Of a DNA stretch of 64,000 bases, positions 37,210 to 52,304 are shown one piece after another. The notes below the pieces were generated by a model. That model made no database searches. It was given only the letters and a program-made list of their open reading frames with translations, and was not told the DNA's origin. How positions within the stretch are numbered: the stretch's first letter is position 1; each line of letters begins with the position of its first letter. Source of the DNA: Methylococcus sp. Mc7 (GTDB lineage Bacteria > Pseudomonadota > Gammaproteobacteria > Methylococcales > Methylococcaceae); contig NZ_CP079095.1 in NCBI RefSeq assembly GCF_019285515.1, forward strand, positions 3,442,501 to 3,506,500. The letters run 5' to 3'. Both the position numbers and the translations under genes were made by a program.

Positions 37210-38079
37210 TCATGGCCTCGTGATATCCATCGCCGGAGCTCGCAGATAGCGGATGATCGCGTCGGCGATACGGTTGCGCTCGGTTTCGGGCAACAGCGCG
37301 TCCAGTGGCGGCATCGCAGTGCCGGGGCGCATTTTCTGGGGTTCGATGATCCAGCTTTTCAGCGCCTCGTCGCCGAGCGGGCGTGAGATTTCGCGCAGGT
37401 CGGCGGGAAATTTCTCGCCGCCGATGCCAGCCACCCGGTGGCAGGTGAGGCAGTAATTTTTGGCGTGCTCGAAACCTTCGGTGGCCGCGGGGTCGGCGTC
37501 CTGCGGACGCGCCGCGGCATAGTCCGCCGGCGTGGCCAGGTCGATCCTGACGACCTGGTAGGGCCAGCCGTACGTGCCTTGGGCACGAGCGACGGGGTCG
37601 TGCAGGTTGTCCCAGATGAGGTAATACGGTCCCAGCGCCACGTCGCTTTCGTGCTGGCTCGGATTGTCGACCGTAAAGGGCTTGCCGTCGGCGCGGCCGA
37701 ATGCGAGCCAGGCGGAGGCGGCGAGAAAACGCCCTGAGTCGGTGCTGGAGCGGTAGCCGTCGCGGGCGAAAAACACGACTTCGGTGCCTGGAGCTTTCCA
37801 GCGCTCCCCGAACAGCCGGCTCAATAATCCGGCCATTCCGAATCCCCGGTAGCTGACCCGGAGTTCGTGTCCGGGGCTGGAAGTGTGCGGCTCGACCACC
37901 TCCACGGTCTGTGCCGGAACGCCGGCCTCGGATTCCAGCCTGTCCGGCGGCGGGAGTTCGACGGCAAGGACGGGTAGCGCCATGGCCGCGAACGCCGCCC
38001 GGATCGTGGTACGGAAAACACCCGCCGGCGTGGACCGCCGGAAAATGGCGCTCCCGCCGTTGGGCTCGGATGCCCTCAT
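37210..38079 (-). CDS. Periplasmic c-type cytochrome
   Basis: A 289-aa protein with one heme-binding CxxCH (CLTCH) in the C-terminal third and a likely axial Met in PGTAMPPLDALL. An N-terminal segment (TTIRAAFAAMALPVLAVE) can act as a Sec signal, though it lies about 20 residues in. The N-terminal 180 residues have no motif known to me; they include WKAPGTEVVFFARDGYRSS and WDNLHDPVARAQ. The ATG at 38079 overlaps the universal stress protein stop by 4 bp (ATGA), so the two are coupled. The start within the frame was chosen from that overlap. It could be an electron carrier or a heme sensor. Confidence 0.75.
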   Translation of the reverse strand: MRASEPNGGSAIFRRSTPAGVFRTTIRAAFAAMALPVLAVELPPPDRLESEAGVPAQTVEVVEPHTSSPGHELRVSYRGFGMAGLLSRLFGERWKAPGTEVVFFARDGYRSSTDSGRFLAASAWLAFGRADGKPFTVDNPSQHESDVALGPYYLIWDNLHDPVARAQGTYGWPYQVVRIDLATPADYAAARPQDADPAATEGFEHAKNYCLTCHRVAGIGGEKFPADLREISRPLGDEALKSWIIEPQKMRPGTAMPPLDALLPETERNRIADAIIRYLRAPAMDITRP

Positions 38080-38504
38080 GCCGGCACCACGAGGACGGGC
38101 ACGGAAGTCCCGCGCAGGACGCCCTCGCAACTGCTTCCGACGATGAGCCGGGCCAGCAGTCCCTTCCCATGGGAACCGAGCACGATCATGTCCGCCTGCA
38201 ACCGTTCGGCTTCCTTGAGAATCGTGTCCACGGTCGGTCCCTGGATCATCAGCCCGGTGCAACTGAATCCCTCCGCACGCAAGGCTTTGGCAGCATCTTG
38301 AACCCGCTGGTGCCAAATCTTGTAGGTTTCGGCGGCCAGGTCGCGCATGATCAGAGGATCGGCGTCGTAGCCGACGAAATCCGGCTCCGGTTCGGCAACG
38401 TGCAGCAGCCATATTTCGGCGGATAACGCTTTGGCCAGGAGCTTGGCCTGGCCCAATACCTTGTCGGTGATTTCGGAGAAATCGATCGCAACCAGCAGCT
38501 TCAT
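38076..38504 (-). CDS. Universal stress protein, UspA family
   Basis: A 142-aa single-domain Usp with the expected start (MKLLVAIDFSEITDKVL) and C-terminal ATP-binding motif GSHGKGLLARLIVGSSCEGVLRGTSVPVLVV (quoted in part; G-2x-G-9x-G(S/T) pattern). Members bind nucleotide and support survival under stress. It is translationally coupled to the cytochrome c gene. Confidence 0.9.
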   Translation of the reverse strand: MKLLVAIDFSEITDKVLGQAKLLAKALSAEIWLLHVAEPEPDFVGYDADPLIMRDLAAETYKIWHQRVQDAAKALRAEGFSCTGLMIQGPTVDTILKEAERLQADMIVLGSHGKGLLARLIVGSSCEGVLRGTSVPVLVVPA

Positions 38505-38825
38505 GGATGGTCAGCCTGTTCGATGGATGTGTGGTCGTTGGCCCGGTGGCGGGCCGCCGACATTATTGGGCGGGATTCGCGGCGATGTAAACCGGAGCCT
38601 TCGTTCGGACGCGGGCTCGAGTTCCGATAGTGCAGCCAGGATCGGAAAAATGCGCCATCCATGGCCGAACATGCCTTGATACGGAATGCCAGGAAACCTT
38701 GTCCTGAAGATGGGAGATGATGGACGCGCTCATGCCGGCAGAGGTTAAGCGCCGGCATCGGCGTCAGCGGAAGACTAGCATGATCGATGCCAGACGTCCG
38801 GAGCACGGGAAATCGCGGCATCGGA
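38505..38825. other. Intergenic stretch without a supported gene
   Basis: About 321 bp between the flippase stop and the usp start. It contains a small GCCGGC inverted repeat (around 38740-38760) near the flippase end, perhaps a weak terminator, and presumably the usp promoter. No ORF is supported. Confidence 0.4.
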
Positions 38826-40310
38826 CTAGCGGGCGGGTGCCGGTCCACGGAGACGGTGTCGCTCCAGCACGACCACGAGGGCGAAGATGAGTAGCAGAAG
38901 GCTGTTGCTGAAGGTGAATTCGGCCCAGGACGGCAACAAGGGCATCCGCTCGGTCAGTTGCCAGATGCTCACGGCGAGCAGGGGATAGCCGAGAATTCGT
39001 TTCAGGTCGTAGCGGACCGGATAGAAGCGTCTGCCCAGGACGTAGGACAGCAAGGCCATGCTGCCGTAGCAGGCGAGCGTCGCCCAGGCGGCGCCCATGT
39101 AGCCGAGCCGCGGTATCCAATAGACGTTGAGCGCCAGCGTGACCGCCGCTCCCCAGACGGTCAGATAGGTGCCGAAGCGCGTCTGCTCGGTCAGTTTGTA
39201 CCAGATGGAAAAATTGAAGAAGACGCCCAGCCAAAGGTTGGCCATCAGAAGGATGGGGACGACGCCGATGCCGGCGCGGTACTTGGCCCCCACGAAATAC
39301 TGGATCCAGCCGAGGTTGAGCATCACCCCCAGGAAGATCAGGGAACAGGCGATGACGAACCAGTTCATGACCAGGGCGTAGAGTTCCCTCGCATCCTTCT
39401 GCCGGTAGTAAGAGAAGAAAAATGGTTCGGCGGCATAGCGGAACGCCTGGATGAACAGGCTCATGAGGATGGCGATCTTGTAACAGGCGCCATAGATGCC
39501 GAGCTGTTCCATGGCGGTGTCCGGCGGCAACAGATACTTCAGCAGAATGCGATCCATGGTCTCGTTGACCATGCCCGCAAGGCCGGCGACCAGCAGCGGC
39601 AGGGCATAGGCCAGCATCCGTCGCCAAAGCGCGACATCGAAGCGAAGTTTCGCCGCGGCCAGCTCGGGTAGAAGCAGCAAGAGGGTCAGGCCGCTGGCGA
39701 TGAGGTTGGCGATGAACACGTAGCCGATGCCGATGGCGGGATCGTAGAGCTGCGCCGCCCAGCCCAGCGAATCTGTCGCTCCGCCGTCGTATGCCCATTT
39801 GCACAAACCGATGAGAAAGACATTGGCGGCGATGTTGACCAGGATGTTCGTGGTCTTGAGCACCGCGAAGCGCTTTGCCTTCTGCTGCTCCCTCAGCTTG
39901 GCGAACGGGAGGGCGGCGAGCGCATCCAGAGCGATGATCCAGGCGACCCAATGCACGTAATCGGTGCGGTCCGGATGTCGAAGCAGGCCGGCGAGGGTGT
40001 CGGCTTGCCACAACACCGCCGCCAGGTACAGCGCCGTCGACAGCGCCAGAGACAGCAGAGCGGTGCTGTACACTGTGGCCTTGTCGGCGGATTTCGCGGA
40101 AAAATTGAAGAGGGCGGTTTCCATGCCATAGGTCAGAACGACGTTCAGAAACGACGTATAGGCATAGAACTCGGTAATCACGCCGAATTCGCCCGGATCG
40201 GCAAACTGGTAGGTATACAGCGGGACCAGGAAGTAATTGAGCAGCCTGCCGATGATGGTACTGAGGCCATAGATCGCGGTCTGGCCGGCCAGCTTCTTGA
40301 GCGGATTCAT
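38826..40310 (-). CDS. Polysaccharide flippase, Wzx/MATE-like
   Basis: A 494-aa polytopic inner-membrane protein with about 12-14 hydrophobic segments, starting MNPLKKLAGQTAIYGLSTIIGR, a typical Wzx/PST-family N-terminus. The family moves lipid-linked polysaccharide units or related cell-surface precursors across the inner membrane. The ATG at 40310 was preferred over an in-frame TTG seven codons upstream. No glycosyltransferases are next to it in this window, so the cargo is unknown. Confidence 0.82.
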   Translation of the reverse strand: MNPLKKLAGQTAIYGLSTIIGRLLNYFLVPLYTYQFADPGEFGVITEFYAYTSFLNVVLTYGMETALFNFSAKSADKATVYSTALLSLALSTALYLAAVLWQADTLAGLLRHPDRTDYVHWVAWIIALDALAALPFAKLREQQKAKRFAVLKTTNILVNIAANVFLIGLCKWAYDGGATDSLGWAAQLYDPAIGIGYVFIANLIASGLTLLLLLPELAAAKLRFDVALWRRMLAYALPLLVAGLAGMVNETMDRILLKYLLPPDTAMEQLGIYGACYKIAILMSLFIQAFRYAAEPFFFSYYRQKDARELYALVMNWFVIACSLIFLGVMLNLGWIQYFVGAKYRAGIGVVPILLMANLWLGVFFNFSIWYKLTEQTRFGTYLTVWGAAVTLALNVYWIPRLGYMGAAWATLACYGSMALLSYVLGRRFYPVRYDLKRILGYPLLAVSIWQLTERMPLLPSWAEFTFSNSLLLLIFALVVVLERHRLRGPAPAR

Positions 40311-40758
40311 GATCGGGGGAATGCGATGCAAAGCGTCAATGCTACCACTGAGGCATGGAACGGCAGTACGGGAGCCGGCTTGCGCCGGCGGGGCGACCGA
40401 TTCGTGTCGAGGCTGACCGCCACTGCACCCGGATGATATGATCCCGACCGCACAAAAGGGTCGGTCACATGCCCAGCCATCGGGTCGGGCGCTTCAGCTT
40501 CCCAGGCAGATTCCGCCGATCGCCTCACTCCTACGATCCGGTTCGCTTCCCGATGGCAACGGGTTGCCGGAGCTGAACGGCCCGTCGCGCCGTGCGGCCC
40601 GTAACCTCTCCCATAACCTGGGTAGCATGGAACGCCGCGGCCTGGATCATCCGCATCGGGCCCGGATACCTGTGCGGTGAGCCAGGAAGCGCTGGCCAAG
40701 GAGTTTCCGCGGCGGTACGGGACTGACCTCCACGGTATAGCGAAACCGGAAGCGATAC
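40311..40758. other. Intergenic stretch upstream of the restriction-modification island
   Basis: About 448 bp. A GCCGGC-TTGC-GCCGGC hairpin lies at 40374-40389. No ORF has recognisable similarity. It presumably holds the promoter of the hsd operon and the left edge of the island. I see no direct repeat matching the right edge near 52304. Confidence 0.4.
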
Positions 40759-41202
40759 ATGGCCAAAGGCAAAGAGAAGGACAACGGTAACCTCGGCTTC
40801 GAGGCCGAATTGTTCCGCGCCGCCGACAAGCTGCGCGGCAACATGGAGCCCTCCGACTACAAGCATGTCGCGCTGGGCCTGATTTTCCTCAAGTACATCT
40901 CCGACGCCTTCGAAGCCAAGCACAAGGCGTTGCTCACCGAAGACGCAGCCGCCGCCGAGGACAAGGACGAATACCTCGCCGACAACGTGTTCTGGGTGCC
41001 GAAGGAGGCCCGCTGGTCGCACCTCAAGGCCTCTGCCCGCCGCCCCGAGATCGGCACCCTGATCGACGACGCCATGCGCGCCATCGAGAAGGACAATGAA
41101 TCCCTCAAGGGCGTGCTGCCCAAGGACTACGCCCGCCCGGCGCTGAACAAGGTGATGCTGGGCGAACTCATCGACCTCATCTCCGGCATTGCTTTACAGC
41201 AA

Positions 41203-41258
41203 CCCTCACCCCCAACCCCTCTCCCAATGGGAGAGGGTGGCCGAAGGCCGGGTGAGGG
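41203..41258. repeat. Hsd-locus palindrome copy a (in hsdM, full length)
   Basis: Outer arms CCCTCACCC and GGGTGAGGG enclose CCCTCTCCC-AAT-GGGAGAGGG and GGCC-GAA-GGCC. It is translated in frame as [19 protein letters not shown] between HsdM residues LISGIAL and [10 protein letters not shown]. It is the longest copy, 56 bp. Confidence 0.88.
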
Positions 41259-41346
41259 AAACATCCGGCGCGCGCAAGCGACGGATGTTTTAGGCCGCGT
41301 CTACGAATACTTCCTCAGCCAGTTCGCCGGTGCCGAAGGCAAGCGC

Positions 41347-41378
<32 letters not shown>

Positions 41379-41525
41379 ACAGGTGCTGGTGCAGATGCTC
41401 GAACCCTACCATGGCCGCGTCTATGACCCTTGCTGCGGCAGTGGCGGTATGTTCGTGCAGTCCGAAAAGTCGTGCTGGAGCACGGCGGGCGCATCGGCGA
41501 CATCGCCATCTACGGCCAGGAGAGC

Positions 41526-41560
<35 letters not shown>

Positions 41561-41580
41561 CGCCGTGCGCGGCATCGATT

Positions 41581-41623
<43 letters not shown>

Positions 41624-41723
41624 GCTGCGCGACCTGCGCTTCGACCACATCCTCGCCAACCCGCCCTTCAACATCTCAGACTGGGGCGGCGACCGCCTGC
41701 GCGAAGACCCGCGCTGGCAGTTC

Positions 41724-41764
<41 letters not shown>

Positions 41765-41983
41765 ACACATCTACTGGCACCTGGCGCCCTACGGCACCGC
41801 CGGCGTAGTGCTGGCCAACGGCTCCATGAGCTCCAACCAGAGCGGCGAAGGCGAGATCCGCAAGGCGATGGTCGAAGCCGACGCCGTGGACTGCATGGTG
41901 GCCCTGCCTGGGCAGTTGTTCTACTCCACCCAGATCCCCGCCTGCCTGTGGTTCCTCGCCCGCGACAAGTCCGGCGCTTCTCT

Positions 41984-42019
41984 CCCCTCTCCCCCTGGGA
42001 GAGGGGCCGGGGGTGAGGG
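41984..42019. repeat. Hsd-locus palindrome copy b (in hsdM)
   Basis: CCCCTCTCCC and GGGAGAGGGG hairpin with a right-hand GGGTGAGGG arm. Translated in frame as [14 protein letters not shown] within WFLARDKS...[10 protein letters not shown], a position where HsdM normally has only a few residues. Confidence 0.88.
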
Positions 42020-42166
42020 AAAGCTGCGCGACCGGCGCGGCGAAGTGCTGTTCATCGACGCCCGCAACATGGGAAGGCTTGTGGATCGCACCCGGCGTGA
42101 ACTCACTGACGCCGACATTCAGAAGATCGCCGATACCTATCACGCTTGGCGTTCCGCCCGGCGTGA

Positions 42167-42199
42167 CCCTCACCCCGGCCCTCTCCCAGAGGGAGAGGG
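42167..42199. repeat. Hsd-locus palindrome copy c (left of DUF559 module 1)
   Basis: CCCTCACCCC arm followed by the hairpin CCCTCTCCC-AGA-GGGAGAGGG. Translated [13 protein letters not shown] in hsdM and running in frame into the DUF559 domain. Confidence 0.88.
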
Positions 42200-42562
42200 T
42201 GAAAAGCTCCAGTATCGGGGCGGATTTGATTTTTCCGGACTGGTGCAGACGGCACGGGAGTTGCGCAAGAAGCAAACACCGGCGGAAGCAGTCATGTGGG
42301 AGCTGCTTCGTAACCGCCAGTTCATAGGACTGAAGTTTCGTCGCCAACATCAGATTGGGGAGTATGTGGCGGATTTTTATTGCGACGAACACAAGCTGGT
42401 CATTGAACTCGATGGAGATGTTCATTCCACCTCGGCACAAGCAACAAAGGACAAGACCCGCGATGCCTACATGACATCCCTGGGACTGACCGTTGTTCGT
42501 ATCCGCAATGCTGAATTCCTCGCCGATCCCAAAGCAGTCCTCGAACGCATCGCGGTAGTTCG

Positions 42563-42593
42563 CCCCTCTCCCTCTGGGAGAGGGGGGTGAGGG
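42563..42593. repeat. Hsd-locus palindrome copy d (right of DUF559 module 1)
   Basis: CCCCTCTCCC-TCT-GGGAGAGGGG hairpin then GGTGAGGG. A run of six G (42582-42587) ends this copy. The DUF559 frame stops within it (TGA 42588-42590), and hsdM resumes one frame over. Confidence 0.88.
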
Positions 42594-42826
42594 TGTCGCG
42601 CCTTACCGCGACATACCCGGCTTCTGCAAATCCGCCACATTGGAAGAAATCCGCAAGCACGGCCATGTGCTCACCCCCGGCCGCTATGTCGGCGCCGAGG
42701 CTGCCGAGGACGACGGCGAGGCCTTTGCCGACAAGATGCGGCGGCTCAGCACCCAGTGGCGCGAGCAGCAGCGCGAAGCGGCGCGGCTGGATTCGGTGAT
42801 CGCGGCCAACCTGAAGGCGCTCGGCT

Positions 42827-43870
42827 ATGACTGATCTGACGACACCTGTCGGCTACGCCGACTTCGTGAATGAAATCAAACAGCAAATCCGTCAGCGCCA
42901 GTATCAGGCGCTACGCGCGGCCAACAAGGAACTGCTCGCCCTGTACTGGTGGATGGGTGAAACCATCAGTCGCCGTCAGACCGAACAGGGCTGGGGCAAG
43001 GCGGTTGTCGAAAGCCTGGCCCACGACCTGCAAGCCGCATTTCCCGGACGCAATGGATTCTCGGCACGCAACCTGTGGAACATGCTGGACTTCTACCGTG
43101 CCTATGCGGACAAGCCAAAACTGCAACCATTGGTTGCAGAAATCAGTTGGGCCAAGAACCTGCTGATCATGGCCCGTTGCAAGGATGATCTGGAACGAGA
43201 GTTCTATCTGCGTGCCACCGCCCGCTTCGGCTGGACCAAGAACGTCCTGCAACACCAGATCGACAACCAGAGCTATCGCCAGTATCTGGCCGGGCAGACC
43301 AACTTCGACGCCGCCGTACCCGAAAGCATCCGTGCGCAAGCCCTGCTGGCGGTGAAAGATCACTATACCTTCGACTTTCTGGGCCTTGCCGACGAACATT
43401 CCGAGCGCGAGCTGGAGCAAGCGCTGATCCGACATCTGCGCGCCTTCCTCACCGAAATGGGAGAGAGCTTCACCTTCGTCGCCAACCAGTACCGGCTGGA
43501 GGTCGACGGCAAGGACTACTTCATCGACCTGCTTTTATTCCACCGCCGCCTGCGCTGCCTGGTCGCCATCGAACTGAAGATCGGCTCGTTCAAGCCCGAG
43601 CACAAGGGCCAGATCGAGTTCTACCTCGACCAGCTCGACCAGCATCACCGCTTCGAGGGCGAAAACCCACCCATCGGCATCGTCATCTGCCGCGACAAGA
43701 CCCGCACCGTGGTCGAATACGCCCTGCGCAACATGAACCGCCCGCTTGGCATCGCCACCTACACCGTCACGCCCCAGCTCCCGGCCGACTACCGGCACGA
43801 CCTGCCCAGCCCTGAGCAGATCGCGGCACGCCTGCAAGCCTGGGCGGTCGGGCAAGGAGAGGACGAATGA
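42827..43870 (+). CDS. DUF1016 family PDDEXK nuclease (YhcG-like)
   Basis: A 347-aa protein. DUF1016_N spans about residues 15-140 ([29 protein letters not shown], quoted in part). The C-terminal PDDEXK nuclease domain has Asp in [13 protein letters not shown] and E-x-K in [11 protein letters not shown], with a downstream Gln (GQIEFY) as in this family. YhcG-type proteins occur in many defence islands and restriction loci; the function is not established. The start overlaps the hsdM end by 8 bp and the stop overlaps the next gene by 4 bp. Confidence 0.88.
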
Positions 43871-44115
43871 GCGAACGACAAGCCGCCTCCGACCCGCGCA
43901 TCGCCATCGTCGATGCCCCGTTCGATTGCGACGAAAGCGAACACCCCTTCGGCAAGCGCTGGCGTCAGGAAACCATTACCCTGACGGCAGCGCATGTCGA
44001 GGCGCTGCGGCAAGGCAAACTCCTGGCCGTGGATGTGCAGGAGGAGTATGTCGTGTATCTCAAGCTGGATGCGGCGATCGAGGCCAACCTGGGGGAGATT
44101 GGGTATGGGGGGTGA
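43867..44115 (+). CDS. Small acidic protein of unknown function in the hsd operon
   Basis: An 82-aa ORF, ATGA-coupled to the DUF1016 gene (43867-43870) and overlapping hsdS by 11 bp. Sequence begins [16 protein letters not shown]; no motif is recognised, though its central part (RQETITLTAAHVEALRQGKLLAVDVQEEYVVYLKL) looks folded. Tight overlap on both sides argues it is translated. Confidence 0.7.
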   Translation: MSERQAASDPRIAIVDAPFDCDESEHPFGKRWRQETITLTAAHVEALRQGKLLAVDVQEEYVVYLKLDAAIEANLGEIGYGG

Positions 44116-45883
44116 GTGGCGCGATTCCACGCTTGGTGAAGTGACTGATTTCTTGTCGGGCGGCACCCCATCAAAGAGCAGAGCCGACTACTGGAACGGC
44201 TCAATCCCTTGGGTATCTGCAAAAGATATGAAGCAGTTCCGGCTCGAAGATTCAGAAGACCACGTTACTGAAGCTGGTGCTTCGAACGGTACGAGACTCG
44301 CTCCTGCTGGCTCGGTATTGCTCCTAGTTCGCGGCATGACCCTGCTCAACGACCTGCCAATTTGCGTTATCAATAAGCCCATGACGTTCAATCAAGACGT
44401 CAAGGCGCTTCGACTAAACACGCATGTCACTGATGACTTCCTTCCATATCTATTGCTCGGGAACAAAGATAGGCTTCTCTCCCGAGTCGATCTCGCGGGC
44501 CACGGCACAGGCCGTCTGAATAGCGACGAACTTAAGGCTCTCGAAATTGGGCTGCCACCCAAGCCCGAACAACGCGCCATCGCCCACATCCTCGGCACGC
44601 TGGACGACAAGATCGAACTCAACCGCCGCCGCAACCAGACCCTGGAGGCCATGGCCCGCGCCCTGTTCAAGGACTGGTTCGTCGACTTCGGCCCCGTCCG
44701 CGCCAGAATGCAGCTCCCCTCTCCCTCCGGGAGAGGGGTAGGGGGTGAGGGAGCCGCGCCCAACCCCCGCATCAAACTTCCACTCCCGCCCCCCCTGCTG
44801 GACAACGCCCGCGCCTTGCGCAAACATGCCACCGATGCGGAAACCCTGCTGTGGCGGCTATTGCGCAACCAGCAACTCGCCGGCGCCAAGTTCCGCCGCC
44901 AGCATTCGCTGCCGCCCTACATCCTCGACTTCTACTGCCACGCACTGAAACTGGCCGTCGAGCTGGACGGGGGGCAACACAACAGCGCCGAAGGCCAGCA
45001 GCGCGATGCGCGGCGCAGCGCCTATCTCGAAGAACGCGGCATCCGGGTTCTGCGTTTCTGGAACAACGACGTATTGCGCGAGACCGAGGCGGTTTTGGAG
45101 GCGATTTATCAGGCCGTGCAGGAGCGGCAGGGCGTGTTTCCCTCACCCCCAGCCCCTCTCCCGGGGGGAGAGGGGAGCCCGATGCCCTTCTCACTTGCGG
45201 AGAACGCTCTGGATGAGCGGGCCTGCCTTCCCGCCGACCTCTGGCAACTCTTCCCCGACCGCCTCGACGACGAAGGCAAGCCGGAGGGGTGGAGTAAACG
45301 GCCGCTCGATGAGATCGCAGACTTTCTCAATGGCCTTGCTCTGCAAAAGTTCCCGGCGACCGATCCTGACGACAGGCTCCCGGTGACCAAGATCGCCGAG
45401 CTTCGCAACGGCGTTAGCGCCAAGAGCGATCGCGCATCGCGTGAGGTGCCGGCCAAGTACATCATCAAGGACGGCGATTTCCTTTTCTCGTGGTCGGGCA
45501 GCTTGCTGGCGAAATTCTGGACCGAGGGTGAAGGAGCGCTCAACCAGCACCTGTTCAAAGTCACTTCCGAGAGCTACCCCATGTGGTTTGTCAGCCATTG
45601 GGTGCATCACCACCTCGAAGCGTTTCAAGCCATCGCAGCCTCAAAGGCCACGACCATGGGCCATATCCAGCGTGGTCATCTCGAGGCGGCGATGACGCTT
45701 TGCCCACCAGACGATGTATTGGAGAGACTTGGCGTCGTGATGGCGCCCCTTGTCGAGCAATCGATTCACAACGAACTCGAATCCCGCACCCTCGCCCAAC
45801 TCCGCAACACCCTGCTGCCCAAACTGATCTCCGGCGAACTGCGCATTGCCGATGCCGAAGAATTCCTAGAGCGCATCGCATGA
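44105..45883 (+). CDS. hsdS: Type I restriction-modification specificity subunit HsdS with inserted DUF559 domain
   Basis: 592 aa, against about 430-450 for a normal HsdS, in one intact frame. The first target-recognition domain runs from WRDSTLGEVTDFLSGGTPSK to the conserved helical spacer (KPEQRAIAHILGTLDDKIELNRRRNQTLEAMARALFKDWFVDFGPV, quoted in pieces). The second target domain starts at LWQLFPDRLDDEGKPEGWSKRPLDEIADF and ends with RNTLLPKLISGELRI. Residues about 204-357 are an insertion: a palindrome-encoded linker, a DUF559 endonuclease-like domain (FRRQHSLPPYILDFYC, LAVELDGGQH) and another palindrome. It lies at the joint between the central spacer and the second half, a site likely to tolerate extra sequence. 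The ATG at 44105 overlaps the previous gene. Confidence 0.9.
   Translation: MGGEWRDSTLGEVTDFLSGGTPSKSRADYWNGSIPWVSAKDMKQFRLEDSEDHVTEAGASNGTRLAPAGSVLLLVRGMTLLNDLPICVINKPMTFNQDVKALRLNTHVTDDFLPYLLLGNKDRLLSRVDLAGHGTGRLNSDELKALEIGLPPKPEQRAIAHILGTLDDKIELNRRRNQTLEAMARALFKDWFVDFGPVRARMQLPSPSGRGVGGEGAAPNPRIKLPLPPPLLDNARALRKHATDAETLLWRLLRNQQLAGAKFRRQHSLPPYILDFYCHALKLAVELDGGQHNSAEGQQRDARRSAYLEERGIRVLRFWNNDVLRETEAVLEAIYQAVQERQGVFPSPPAPLPGGEGSPMPFSLAENALDERACLPADLWQLFPDRLDDEGKPEGWSKRPLDEIADFLNGLALQKFPATDPDDRLPVTKIAELRNGVSAKSDRASREVPAKYIIKDGDFLFSWSGSLLAKFWTEGEGALNQHLFKVTSESYPMWFVSHWVHHHLEAFQAIAASKATTMGHIQRGHLEAAMTLCPPDDVLERLGVVMAPLVEQSIHNELESRTLAQLRNTLLPKLISGELRIADAEEFLERIA
44716..44751. repeat. Hsd-locus palindrome copy e (left of DUF559 module 2)
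   Basis: CCCCTCTCCC-TCC-GGGAGAGGGG hairpin followed by GGGGGTGAGGG. Translated [13 protein letters not shown] in hsdS. Confidence 0.88.
45140..45175. repeat. Hsd-locus palindrome copy f (right of DUF559 module 2)
   Basis: CCCTCACCCCC arm followed by CCCCTCTCCC-GGG-GGGAGAGGGG. Translated [15 protein letters not shown] in hsdS, in frame into the second target-recognition half. Confidence 0.88.
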
Positions 45884-47592
45884 AGTTGGCGCGCATCTCC
45901 ATACACAACTTCCGAGGCATCATCGACGCCTCGATGGCATTCCATCCCTATGCGCTGGGAGCAGGCGCGAACAATTCAGGCAAGAGCACCATCATCGACT
46001 GCATCCGGGCCTTCTATGAGAAGGACGGTTTCAAGTTCAAAAAGGAGGCCGATTTCCCACTCAAAGGGGCGGTTGACCAGGAGTCATGGGCAGAGCTGAC
46101 GTTTTCGCTCACCGACGAAGAGCATGACTCCCTGAAGGATGAATACAAGACCGCTGAAAAGGTGCTAAAGGTCAGGAAGTACTTTCAGACTGGCGAAAAG
46201 CTCCACGACGGAAAGGGTGCCGCCGGGTCAATTCTTGGCTACAAGACTGATGGCACCCTGTCGAACGAACCTTTCTACGGCGCGAAGAATGTCCAGAGCG
46301 GCAAGTTCGGCGATCTGATCTATATCCCGGCCATCAGCAAGGTTGATGAACACACGAAGCTCAGCGGCCCGTCGGCCCTGCGCGATCTGATCACCAATAT
46401 TATGTCGGATGTGGTGGAAGGGAGCGACGCCTACAGGGCGTTGACCGATAGCGTAACCACTTTTGCCGACAGCGTTCGTGCCATCGAGACCGAGGATAAA
46501 CGCTCGCTGTCGAATTTCGAGAATGACCTAAACGCACTGCTTGCCCCGTGGCAGACGAACTTCAATCTCAAGTTCACGGCGCCATCCACGGCGGAAATCA
46601 TCAAGTCCATGCTCGGGTGGGACATCCGGGACAATCATCACGAGAAGCCGCAAGGTGTCGAGTACTTCGGCTCCGGCTTCCAGCGACACTTCATCTATTC
46701 GCTGATTCAACTTGGCGCGAAGTACGTGCCACAGAAGGTTTCGAAGAAGGCAAAAGACTTCGCGCCCTCATTGAACCTGGTGCTTTTCGAAGAGCCAGAG
46801 GCTTTCCTGCACCCGCCGCAACAGGAGGATTTGGCCCGTAACCTGATCACGGTCAGCGAGGCTGTCGACTGGCAAATTGTCTGCTCCACCCACTCCGCGC
46901 ACTTCGTGAGCAGGAATGCCGTGCGAATTCCAGCCATCATTCGGGCGCGACGGGCAGACGGGGTCGTATCCACCTTCCAGATCGACGAGGCGCAATGGAA
47001 CAACATCGTTGATGCCAACCACGCCATTCAGCAGGTTGCAGCCAAGTACCCAAGGGTACAGCAAACCATGCAGGCTGATGACCTCAAGCCTGAAATGGAG
47101 TCGGTGAAGTACTTCTTGTGGCTCAATCCAGATCGCGCCGGAATGCTGTTTGCACAACATGTACTGCTCGTCGAAGGACCCAGCGAGACTGCATTGATCA
47201 ACCGCTTGTTGGACGATGGCAGAATCGCTTTACCTCAAGGAACCTATGTCCTCGACTGTCTCGGCAAGTACAACATACACCGCTTCATGAATCTGCTAAG
47301 TAGCCTCGGCGTGGTTCATGCGGTGCTGCACGATGACGACAACAGTGCGAACGAGCACCAGGAACTCAATCAGCTGGTGGCGGATTCGAAGAACGCGGAC
47401 TTTACGCATTCGGTCATCACGATACCGAAGGATCTCGAAGATTACCTCGGTGTGGCGCCGCCGGGCTCCAGCCACAGAAAGCCCCAGCATCTGCTGTATT
47501 GCTACGCCACCAATCAAATTGACAATGCAAAGCTGGGTGGATTCTGCGAGCTGGTGCAATCCTGCTTCGCAATGAAGGAAGACAAACCATGA
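45880..47592 (+). CDS. OLD-family ATP-dependent endonuclease (AAA ATPase with TOPRIM)
   Basis: A 570-aa protein beginning MKLARISIHNFRGIIDASMAF, the SMC/RecF-type start. Walker A is GANNSGKSTI near residue 32; Walker B LVLFEEPEAFLHP and the following signature-like STHSAHF lie near 310-350. The C-terminal TOPRIM nuclease domain has VLLVEGPSETALINRLL and the acidic DDDN cluster (HAVLHDDDNSANEH). OLD nucleases act in phage defence (Gabija- and retron-associated versions included). The ATG overlaps the hsdS stop by 4 bp (ATGA), so it is coupled to the hsd operon. I do not assign it to a named system. Confidence 0.87.
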   Translation: MKLARISIHNFRGIIDASMAFHPYALGAGANNSGKSTIIDCIRAFYEKDGFKFKKEADFPLKGAVDQESWAELTFSLTDEEHDSLKDEYKTAEKVLKVRKYFQTGEKLHDGKGAAGSILGYKTDGTLSNEPFYGAKNVQSGKFGDLIYIPAISKVDEHTKLSGPSALRDLITNIMSDVVEGSDAYRALTDSVTTFADSVRAIETEDKRSLSNFENDLNALLAPWQTNFNLKFTAPSTAEIIKSMLGWDIRDNHHEKPQGVEYFGSGFQRHFIYSLIQLGAKYVPQKVSKKAKDFAPSLNLVLFEEPEAFLHPPQQEDLARNLITVSEAVDWQIVCSTHSAHFVSRNAVRIPAIIRARRADGVVSTFQIDEAQWNNIVDANHAIQQVAAKYPRVQQTMQADDLKPEMESVKYFLWLNPDRAGMLFAQHVLLVEGPSETALINRLLDDGRIALPQGTYVLDCLGKYNIHRFMNLLSSLGVVHAVLHDDDNSANEHQELNQLVADSKNADFTHSVITIPKDLEDYLGVAPPGSSHRKPQHLLYCYATNQIDNAKLGGFCELVQSCFAMKEDKP

Positions 47593-47693
47593 CCCGCATC
47601 CCCGTCAACCCCGAGCTGCTGACCTGGGCGCGCGAGCGCGCCGGGCTGGAGGGCGAAGCACACAAATCCGGGGTCGCCCGTCATGCGAGGTAA
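47589..47693 (+). pseudogene. Truncated XRE-ImmA/IrrE-type N-terminal fragment
   Basis: A 34-codon ORF starting MTRIPVNPELLTWARERAGL, which matches the N-terminus of XRE-HTH proteins fused to an ImmA/IrrE metallopeptidase (antitoxin-like partners). It breaks after about 20 residues and ends at TAA 47691, overlapping the Fic start. It overlaps the OLD-nuclease stop by 4 bp. The bulk of the gene has been lost, presumably when the Fic gene arrived. Confidence 0.6.
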
Positions 47694-48813
47694 TGCTATG
47701 CAGCCCTATGTCCCCGACACATTGCCGCTGACCGATCTGAATTACCGCCTGCTGCTGCCTCTGGTGGGGCAGGCCAACGCCGCGCTGGCCCGGTATGACG
47801 GGCTGCTGCAGGGCATCCCGAATCCGGCGGTGATGCTCTCGCCGCTGACGACGCAAGAAGCAGTGCTGTCCTCGAAGATCGAGGGCACCCAGGCCACCGT
47901 GGATGAGGTGCTCGAACAGGAGGCGGGGCTGATCAAGGAGGGCGAGAAGTACAAGGACATTCAGGAGATTTCCAATTACCGGCTGGCGCTGTTCAAGGCC
48001 AGGGAATATCTGGAGGTTTACCCGATTCGCCTGGGATTCGTGCGCGAGCTGCACCGCATCCTGATGAACAGCGTGCGCGGCGAAGAGAAGAACCCCGGCG
48101 ATTTCCGGCGCGACCAGAACTGGATCGGCCGGCAGGGCTGCCCGATCGAGCAGGCCAGTTTCGTGCCCCCCAACCCCGTTCAACTGCCGGATTTCATGCA
48201 GGCATGGGAACGGTATCTGGACAGCGACGATGTGGACTTTTTGATCCAGACGGCGGTGGTCCACGCGCAATTCGAGTTACTGCACCCATTCAAGGATGGC
48301 AACGGTCGTATCGGACGCATTCTGATTCCACTGTTCCTGTACCAGAAGCGAGCGCTGTCGCAGCCGATGTTCTACCTGTCGGAGTATCTGGAGAGTCATC
48401 GCGACGAGTACTACGAGCGCCTCAAGGCGATTTCAGCCGAGAAGGACTGGGATGGCTGGATTGCTTTCTTCCTGCGCGCCACCATTGAGCAGGCGGGGCA
48501 GAACACAAGGCGGGTCGAGGCGATCAAGGCGCTCTACGACGAGATGAAGATCGCCATTCAGGAAACCACCCATTCCCAATATTCGGTGCACTTGCTCGAT
48601 GCCATTTTCAGCAAGCCCATCTTCCGCACCTCGGATCTGGCGCAAAAGTTGGCGGCGGACTACGGCATCCACGAGAAAACCGCCCCGGCGCTGCTGCGGC
48701 AGCTGAAGGCAGCAGGCATCCTGCGGGAGTTGCAGGCCGGTAGCGGCCGCCGTGCGGCGACCCTGTGCTTTCCCCGGCTGATCAACCTGGCGGAAGGTCG
48801 CGAGGTGCTATGA
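47683..48813 (+). CDS. Fic-domain protein (AMPylase/adenylyltransferase family)
   Basis: A 376-aa Fic protein (or 371 from ATG 47698, MQPYVPD). The Fic catalytic motif is HPFKDGNGRIGR (HPFxxGNGRxxR) near residues 201-212, so the active-site His is intact. An N-terminal inhibitory helix with the (S/T)xxxE(G/N) motif is present: SSKIEGTQATVDEVL. This is a class II, self-inhibited Fic layout. The C-terminal winged-helix-like region (FRTSDLAQKLAADYGIHEKTA) suggests DNA or protein binding. Fic enzymes modify target proteins with AMP or other nucleotides; targets are unknown. It sits between the OLD nuclease and hsdR. Confidence 0.92.
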   Translation: MRGNAMQPYVPDTLPLTDLNYRLLLPLVGQANAALARYDGLLQGIPNPAVMLSPLTTQEAVLSSKIEGTQATVDEVLEQEAGLIKEGEKYKDIQEISNYRLALFKAREYLEVYPIRLGFVRELHRILMNSVRGEEKNPGDFRRDQNWIGRQGCPIEQASFVPPNPVQLPDFMQAWERYLDSDDVDFLIQTAVVHAQFELLHPFKDGNGRIGRILIPLFLYQKRALSQPMFYLSEYLESHRDEYYERLKAISAEKDWDGWIAFFLRATIEQAGQNTRRVEAIKALYDEMKIAIQETTHSQYSVHLLDAIFSKPIFRTSDLAQKLAADYGIHEKTAPALLRQLKAAGILRELQAGSGRRAATLCFPRLINLAEGREVL

Positions 48814-49087
48814 CCTTTCTGCGGAGCGGCTGGACTCCTCAAGCACATTTGCGGAGCGTATGCGTAGAAATAGGCTCCGCAATCTTGGTAGCGGCGTCGG
48901 GCAACTCCGCTAAGCGCGCTGTCTGCCCTTCCGGGCAGGAGCCTTATTTAATCCCGTGCCCGGAAAACGCCATGCCTACTTCTAAACATTCATTGAAATC
49001 AGTGACTTGCTTATTAAAGCCTGTCCCGGCTTCTGTGGCATGCCACGACCAGGGGCATGGCAGCCACCCCCTGCGGGAGCGACCCTG

Positions 49088-52304
<3,217 letters not shown>

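Follow-up and report, generated by a model that had tools for sequence, protein, structure and literature searches.

Why should the same nuclease domain sit inside two subunits of one restriction-modification (R-M) system, with palindromes on both sides of it each time? The question is raised by a 64,000-nucleotide stretch of Methylococcus sp. Mc7 (contig NZ_CP079095.1, positions 3,442,501 to 3,506,500; hereafter the window, in which all positions below are counted). It contains a type I R-M operon, comprising hsdM, a DUF1016/YhcG nuclease gene, a short gene, hsdS, an ATPase-like gene and, further on, hsdR; the ATPase-like gene and hsdR were named by eye from their open reading frames. Both HsdM and HsdS carry a DUF559 domain, and the palindrome CCCTCTCCCnnnGGGAGAGGG is present on both sides of each domain. 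The answer that we favour, with a rough probability of 0.6, is that each module represents a small mobile unit, in which a DUF559 nuclease gene lies between two inverted copies of a palindrome known as TM/PIT and the nuclease cuts at the palindromes. That DUF559 and its paired hairpins form a unit is well supported. Genomes and loci are designated below by G and L numbers, G000 being Mc7.

The DUF559 profile (PF04480) matches the two window domains with 115.7 and 127.9 bits, against a curated cut-off of 20.6, and both are bracketed by palindromes, as an earlier note on this DNA had proposed. The same note described the HsdS frame of 592 residues as intact, with the nuclease between its halves. 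This is borne out, since the frame is open and two HsdS profiles match residues 1–202 and 381–589; the insert, approximately residues 203–380, has therefore been added between the two halves. Both halves would be expected to keep working despite the insert; a predicted model of the entire protein, built from a two-row alignment, has a mean predicted local distance difference test score (pLDDT) of 31, too low to speak for the folding of the two target-recognition domains. HsdM is encoded in three frame pieces, of which the first and last share a frame and the middle piece, containing the methylase core and DUF559, differs. The frame change reported after the HsdM insert is real, and another precedes the insert. 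The opposite palindrome orientation of the two modules was also correctly described, the purine tails pointing inward in HsdS and outward in HsdM.

The window palindromes match the TM/PIT motif given in Table 1 of PMC4666352, a hairpin CCCTCTCCC..GGGAGAGGG with a mirror purine tail GGGTGAGGG; hairpin folding alone was computed here, and the triplex name comes from the published motif. According to the available text of that paper, TM_ECO/PIT is an intrastrand triplex motif found in more than 260 genomes, with 23 copies in Escherichia coli K-12, some of them paired; in E. coli it is described as always intergenic, with no mobility gene nearby, and its loci are linked to instability and are themselves unstable (PMC4666352). 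For Enterobacter sp. 638, 100 TM copies are reported in the part of PMC2869309 available. At the DUF559 loci an end typically has the C-rich hairpin CCTCtCCC-loop-GGGaGAGG, in some cases joined by another small one, before the purine tail GGGtGAGGG, which mostly points towards the gene. The six window palindromes are open in 27 of 36 frames, and their translations are linkers rich in P, S, G, E and R. The palindrome itself is thus already known; no paper joining DUF559 with palindromic ends was found in the open-licence PubMed Central literature.

The association is not peculiar to this locus, as the earlier note allowed that it might be, and is general in both of the samples analysed. For each domain, the 200 bp to either side were scored for their best hairpin, with a stem score of at least 8 on both sides as the criterion. 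The first sample was drawn from a DUF559 alignment scan and comprised the best 80 of 570 related stretches, eight of the 80 loci lying too near a contig end. The second was drawn from DUF559 hits in 150 Pseudomonadota genomes (72 loci fetched, two too short); it took full-length hits outside Mc7, with E up to approximately 1e-13, and left out fragments and three single hits: G151:C12, which contains a stop, G155:C16, at the edge of its contig, and G151:C10:5527, which adjoins another hit. In the first sample, 48 of 72 loci had such stems on both sides, compared with 1 of 381 control windows displaced along those loci; the second sample gave 42 of 70, and its controls 2 of 278. Inverted similarity of the flanks was at least 16 in 50/72 and 41/70 loci, respectively (0/381 shifted windows and 1/278 controls), and a stem on at least one side was present in 63/70 second-sample loci versus 45/278 controls. 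Among Vsr genes in the same genome sample, none of 30 had palindromes on both sides when the flanks were 200 bp long, and one of the 30 did when they were extended to 350 bp (30 of the 43 matches listed had loci). The C-rich palindrome was absent from all 16 loci of Y1-type genes of relatives that were long enough to assess (four of the 20 were too short).

The two ends of a unit also resemble one another. A narrower TM-like expression matched both sides in 50 of 108 loci, and in 44 of these 50 the inner loop had the same length at both ends, where 15.8 were expected and the highest of 2000 shuffles gave 27. The DUF559 tree was built from 106 columns and is weakly resolved; on it, 16 changes suffice to place loop length over the 77 rows with one loop length, compared with a mean of 36.4 and a minimum of 31 in 300 shuffles. 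The inverted ends are nearly identical over approximately 60 bp in L090, L299, L290 and L311. Amongst the 168 loci scanned for tails, 47 pairs point inward, four outward and four are mixed; in the remainder the tail or stem could not be read on one side or both. The expression used mislabels some loci with multiple palindromes, for example L076, which otherwise looks outward. All four outward pairs (L003, L067, L086 and L115) are embedded in host proteins, that is, 4 of 16 embedded copies versus 0 of 35 others (p = 0.007).

DUF559 was found fused to unrelated hosts, as the earlier note suggested it might be, again with linkers rich in P, S, G, E and R. Among the 80 contigs of the first sample there are 17 in which DUF559 is in frame with host sequence, the hosts being MetG, ValS (twice), HrpA, HsdM (four times), type IIG-like methylases (twice), HsdS, Mfd, MetH, a peptidase, PriA and IspE, and one protein without a Pfam name (L108). 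Hosts were assigned by Pfam, and the HsdM of L094 was placed by sequence instead; open frames upstream of DUF559 in the GC-rich loci L252, L268, L282, L285, L302, L303, L308, L311 and L313 were judged by eye to be non-host and were not counted. Further hosts in the relatives are HsdS, DNA methylases, HsdR, MetG and HsdM.

Mc7 itself contains the exact core CTCTCCCNNNGGGAGAG in 35 copies in its 4.0-Mb genome (0 for the reversed control pattern) and a variant with a 6-nt interior in 11. Seven of the 35 type-3 palindromes lie within positions 41203–50333, i.e. one R-M operon, and R-M genes look like a palindrome hotspot. The search of this genome gave four DUF559 domains, each of them part of a long frame shared with another gene: HsdM, HsdS, an N6/N4 DNA methylase (L001; Pfam E 1.6e-30) and SelD (L004), where DUF559 is at the C-terminus of a protein with AIRS domains. 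The SelD copy is flanked by another palindrome family (CCCCCCTTATCAGGGGGG). At the methylase gene with its DUF559 copy (G000:C1:515575-517594) are 5 of the 11 type-6 palindromes of the genome. In the corresponding DNA methylase of G004 (L015) a palindrome-derived linker has expanded to a tandem array (ENESPSPAGGGG), and the L001 methylase is without a stretch of approximately 120 residues at that linker, as though it had been deleted between palindromes.

Empty homologous sites, whose existence in close strains the earlier note had raised, were found for both HsdM and MetG. The HsdM linker after YHAWR is empty in G029 and G057, whose HsdM proteins are 95% (over 219 residues) and 84% identical, respectively, to that of Mc7. 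In G004 (89%) it is occupied by a single palindrome, and in L187 and L188 by a gene-free palindrome doublet. DUF559 modules are found there in Mc7, G005, G030, Methylomonas (L058), Mariprofundus (L064) and Azonexus (L094). These six copies need five changes on the DUF559 tree, which, together with the empty close relatives, looks like repeated insertion into a linker that is permissive, and not like a domain architecture that has become fixed. DUF559 at the same positions in other HsdM and HsdS proteins, which the earlier note would have counted against a mobile unit, is thus seen in part (the six HsdM, and one further HsdS from Nitrospira, L069, with DUF559 in the same inter-half linker as in Mc7), and the tree changes and empty relatives speak the other way. 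That insertion as such does not depend on the frame is seen in G005, where the HsdM module is not in frame with its host. The same linker contains unrelated palindromic elements (GTAGGGGCG.., GTAGGTTGGG..) in L168, L175, L179 and L182, in the manner of a general landing site.

In MetG, a module precedes the tRNA-binding domain in G002, G019, G032 and G010. A MetG match was present in 54 of 61 genomes, and of the 30 MetG loci examined three have the module and 27 do not. The site is filled in G002 and empty in the other five genomes of its genus (Mc7, G001, G003, G004 and G005). G019 and G032 both carry the module, and a third member of their genus, G029, has an empty site. The inserts share one site across three genera. 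At another MetG linker, TM palindromes are in frame in L144 (G015) and L159 (G018), and palindrome-like sequence is present there in G002 too.

The embedded domain has the features of a working nuclease. Modelled with 67 relatives, the HsdS copy reaches a pLDDT of 86.7; the best solved Foldseek match of this model is 3hrl (DUF559), followed by the homing endonuclease I-Bth0305I (3r3p_B; E 8.6e-5, TMt 0.82), with Vsr (1cw0) at rank 7 (E 0.011). A sequence profile gives 2.6e-38 for 3hrl and 2.3e-4 for 3r3p. Residues E14, D43, D56, H60 and D69 (numbered as in the HsdS copy) are kept in all 31 domains labelled as fused and in at least 107 of 109 overall. The ratio of non-synonymous to synonymous divergence (dN/dS) is 0.07–0.19 in eight of nine domain pairs, dS not being computable in one; examples are the MetG pair of G019 and G032 (dN 0.045, dS 0.287) and the methylase pair L001 and L015 (dN 0.052, dS 0.279). 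The kept active-site residues and purifying selection suggest that the embedded copies are, by sequence, live nucleases. Similarity to Vsr is confined to the fold, as the Vsr profile (PF03852) is absent from the Pfam matches of both host proteins and was not found in the genome of Mc7. Pfam scans of the host frames gave no intein profile; introns were not searched for. The available parts of earlier papers treat DUF559 as Vsr-like in Caulobacter VsrA, which is proposed to act in mismatch repair (PMC12907096), and in YcjD of E. coli (PMC1189080), and as EDxHD-type in a cyanobacterium (PMC9403480). One DUF559 query matched two phage records and 44 records of a plasmid collection, and viral contigs contributed 32 loci; on these counts, phages look like a minor route.

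TM numbers also vary with DUF559 among 61 relatives, in correlations that take no account of phylogeny. The 21 genomes whose DUF559 hit lies below 1e-20 have a median of 9 copies of the 3-nt-loop TM and the other 40 a median of 0 (p = 1e-4); within the family the values are 9.5 and 1. In genomes with 6-nt-type DUF559 copies, the 6-nt-loop TM occurs 11 (G000), 10 (G004), 5 (G023), 12 (G028), 1 (G031), 7 (G036) and 0 (G020) times; in the nine genomes whose typed copies are of the 3-nt type, the counts are 0, 1, 0, 4, 0, 0, 0, 0 and 0. Restricted to palindromes not near DUF559, the seven 6-nt-type genomes have 6, 1, 2, 11, 0, 6 and 0, an excess at p = 0.02 in a test that left out G003 and G018 (5-nt type; 0 and 1) and G041, G048 and G059 (no TM typed; 0). 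G057, in which no DUF559 was found, departs plainly from this pattern with 24 copies of the 6-nt-loop TM, and G015, G034 and G026 have 4, 2 and 2. TM also forms gene-free doublets of recurring spacing, partial lists giving 96, 78, 96, 98 and 96 in G018 and 52, 52, 81, 52 and 52 in G029; the tails point inward in most of the G018 doublets and not in those of G029.

Coordinates of the window features are collected in Table 1. The earlier note did not mention the single palindromes in hsdM (41203 and 41980) and hsdR (50301), nor the other DUF559 copies of Mc7. Frame changes occur at 41457 and 42585 in hsdM and at 50301–51060 in hsdR, two of them at palindromes; those in hsdM and hsdR could reflect mutational decay or sequencing error. 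An Rfam search gave no match within positions 38000–52000.

Table 1. Palindromes, DUF559 modules and host genes of the R-M operon, in window positions
Feature	Position	Strand	Basis or remark
hsdM N-terminal part (HsdM_N and start of N6_Mtase)	40759..41457	+	Pfam, open reading frames; frame change near 41457
Single palindrome, in frame in HsdM, with second small hairpin and both tails	41203..41259		Absent from the 95%-identical HsdM of G029
hsdM middle part, N6_Mtase and DUF559 in one frame	41430..42590	+	Open reading frames, Pfam
Single palindrome, in frame in HsdM	41980..42020		Absent from G029 and G005
Left palindrome of HsdM module, tail outward	42167..42199		
DUF559 (EDxHD/Vsr-fold) nuclease domain in HsdM linker	42243..42554	+	Pfam E 1.2e-33
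Right palindrome of HsdM module, tail outward; frame change here	42562..42594		
hsdM C-terminal part, other frame (...LTPGRYVG)	42559..42834	+	Open reading frames
DUF1016/YhcG PD-(D/E)XK nuclease gene between hsdM and hsdS	42827-43870		Pfam
hsdS, 592 residues, open frame, nuclease between its two halves	44105..45883	+	Pfam, open reading frame
Left palindrome of HsdS module, tail inward	44714..44752		
DUF559 nuclease domain in HsdS, EDxHD residues conserved	44801..45118	+	Pfam E 1.8e-37
Right palindrome of HsdS module, tail inward; arms 88% complementary over 49 nt	45137..45177		
Single palindrome in hsdR at frame change	50301..50333		hsdR named by eye

A counterpart exists in E. coli. In MG1655, ycjD (L194) is annotated as a DUF559 gene, though the PF04480 search gave no match in the E. 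coli control genome. Its start is overlapped by a hairpin and its stop by a TM-like palindrome, and a TM follows approximately 170 bp after its end. At least 80% of the ycjD locus is found in one place in 3330 of 5426 genomes. No clean empty site was seen at this locus; three strains without ycjD carry an efflux operon there, as is also described in the available text of PMC12817139.

We suggest that the unit would consist of a DUF559 gene of approximately 110–125 codons between two inverted TM/PIT palindromes. Its EDxHD/Vsr-type nuclease may cut or nick at the palindromes, or at structures into which they fold as single strands. Repair or recombination could then use another copy as the template and insert the unit, a single palindrome or a doublet elsewhere, with no target duplication. 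When a unit enters an inter-domain linker in frame, the nuclease would be made as an extra domain on the host's expression. As the palindromes are open in most frames and encode flexible linkers, such insertion between domains may often be harmless. Recombination between the palindromes might later delete the gene and leave a single palindrome; because each palindrome reads as its own complement, two inverted copies double as direct repeats within their cores, and such a loss would fit the single-palindrome sites. From the kinship with a homing endonuclease, and from ends that match each other and follow the DUF559 tree, we infer that the nuclease starts and drives the movement.

Several observations weigh against this proposal. 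Both samples include several loci per genome, so not all loci are independent, and 28 of the 70 second-sample loci lack qualifying stems on both sides. The five weakest hits of that sample (E above 1e-16) are without palindromes, and a palindrome-free DUF559 branch seems to exist. Just two of its 70 copies are embedded, L258 (the same Mariprofundus HsdM again) and L276 (a YkuD protein); most therefore stand alone, and the first sample leans to close relatives of the Mc7 copies. Target-site duplication is not in excess over 54 loci (2-mers 10 versus 11.3 and 3-mers 3 versus 3.1 expected), and the 4-mers (2 versus 0.9) and 5-mers (1 versus 0.14) are within the shuffled range. In MetG, the insert is 71% identical in one comparison, where the host is 65–68% identical upstream and 80–82% downstream, and 89% in a second, where the host is 91% and 96%; inserts that have diverged about as much as their hosts suggest old insertions, and recent homing into MetG is not supported. 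That larger segments with a DUF559 gene are amongst the recombination hotspots of an evolution experiment (PMC12308824) speaks for the unit; these segments also carry a transposase. Type-3 TM is plentiful without a strong DUF559 hit in G024 (143), G011 (35), G015 (32), G039 (26), G046 (25) and G051 (20), so TM can persist or spread without DUF559; in G057 there are 24 type-6 palindromes with no DUF559 found, pointing to past loss or another mover. The earlier suggestion of a nuclease gene spreading with its flanking hairpins is well supported as to the unit; the lack of target-site duplication, the MetG result and these palindrome-rich genomes weigh against the nuclease as the driver of the movement. 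Y1-type genes, present in 54 of the 61 relatives, could move palindromes in trans, and three of the 16 Y1-type loci have other hairpins on both sides. With the TM-rich genomes and the doublets of fixed spacing with no gene between them, they favour an account in which other machinery (RAYT/Y1 enzymes, replication slippage or host recombination) moves TM and DUF559 is cargo caught between two copies. We regard this as unlikely, because amongst the families tested (Vsr and Y1 genes, and the shifted windows) paired ends belong to DUF559 alone, because those ends follow the DUF559 tree, and because random cargo would not be one family in many phyla, though other cargo genes were not searched for.

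Ordinary domain fusion would make DUF559 a working nuclease domain recruited by R-M and repair proteins, with the palindromes as incidental linkers. R-M or methylase proteins do hold about half of the embedded copies, purifying selection has kept the active site and the MetG inserts are as old as the divergence of their hosts; such an origin is nevertheless improbable for hosts that share no function (MetG, ValS, MetH, SelD, IspE and YkuD), with empty sites in sister species and a single HsdM linker that holds different DUF559 branches, single palindromes or unrelated palindromes. Least credible of all is that the palindromes are selfish by themselves, like Rickettsia palindromic elements, with DUF559 a Vsr-like host repair gene that is flanked because palindromes promote recombination. 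The proposed role of VsrA in mismatch repair (PMC12907096, in the part available) and the published instability of TM loci (PMC4666352, likewise) would suit it; the matched ends, the predominance of inward tails (47 to 4) and the agreement with the tree would go unexplained, and the related repair nuclease Vsr has no such ends. The mobile TM-flanked nuclease gene remains the reading that we prefer. A stronger form of it, which we put forward tentatively and at rather less than even odds, is that TM-DUF559-TM is an autonomous element whose EDxHD nuclease recognizes its own hairpin, perhaps triplex, ends, copies itself and the non-autonomous TM doublets and singles, and parasitizes host genes, even essential ones, in frame and without splicing. 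The nuclease would then be the missing mobility enzyme of TM/PIT, with YcjD as its E. coli representative.

By 2015 at the latest, TM/PIT had been described as abundant, unstable and without a mobility gene nearby (PMC4666352). Through DUF559, a known orphan repeat family gains a candidate enzyme, and DUF559 genes with matched TM pairs across phyla make the origin of TM directly testable, also in E. coli K-12 via ycjD. By bringing its own linkers, a nuclease would have a route to life inside essential proteins without splicing. This bears on the annotation of fused proteins, the evolution of restriction-modification and the origin of domain insertions.

One close parallel is provided by repetitive extragenic palindromes (REP) and their doublets (REPIN) with RAYT (TnpA-REP), a system of short palindromes, inverted doublets and a palindrome-flanked nuclease gene, with no obvious target duplication. 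The short palindromes, the flanked nuclease gene and the want of obvious duplication are shared by the DUF559 unit, and TM doublets may likewise be units of dispersal; its enzyme is EDxHD/PD-(D/E)XK and not HUH Y1, and its palindrome is unlike the GTAG-tagged REPs. The gene between the palindromes is DUF559 and not an HUH Y1 enzyme, and the 16 Y1 loci have no TM palindrome. Rickettsia palindromic elements are palindromes inserted in frame in many proteins, of other sequence and with no nuclease gene between copies; the in-frame palindromes are the likeness and the nuclease between copies the difference. Miniature inverted-repeat transposable elements (MITEs) and insertion sequences (IS) have inverted ends, are dispersed and form gene-free doublets. 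Terminal inverted repeats, dispersal and doublets are present here too, but with no transposase between the ends and no excess of target duplication.

The remaining parallels concern the palindrome and the enzyme separately. The module palindrome is the published TM motif; TM as published is always intergenic in E. coli and without a mobility gene nearby, whereas here pairs of it enclose DUF559 and it is translated in frame as part of proteins. The EDxHD homing endonuclease I-Bth0305I (PDB 3r3p; PMC3943268, available in part) is the nearest solved fold after DUF559 and has the same active-site pattern, but in the present case there is no intein profile, no splicing seen and no added DNA-binding region, and palindromes flank the gene. 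VsrA belongs to the same family, with proposed catalytic residues that are equally spaced (PMC12907096), as does YcjD, the gene of which has palindromes at both sides (PMC1189080, PMC12817139); the available portions of these texts treat the two as repair-like or hypothetical and make no link with palindromes. If another enzyme moves TM-DUF559-TM, it would become a new REP-type variant. As it stands, a nuclease with paired TM ends fits none of the classes tested (RAYT/REPIN, IS/MITE and intein), and we rate it as a new kind of unit.

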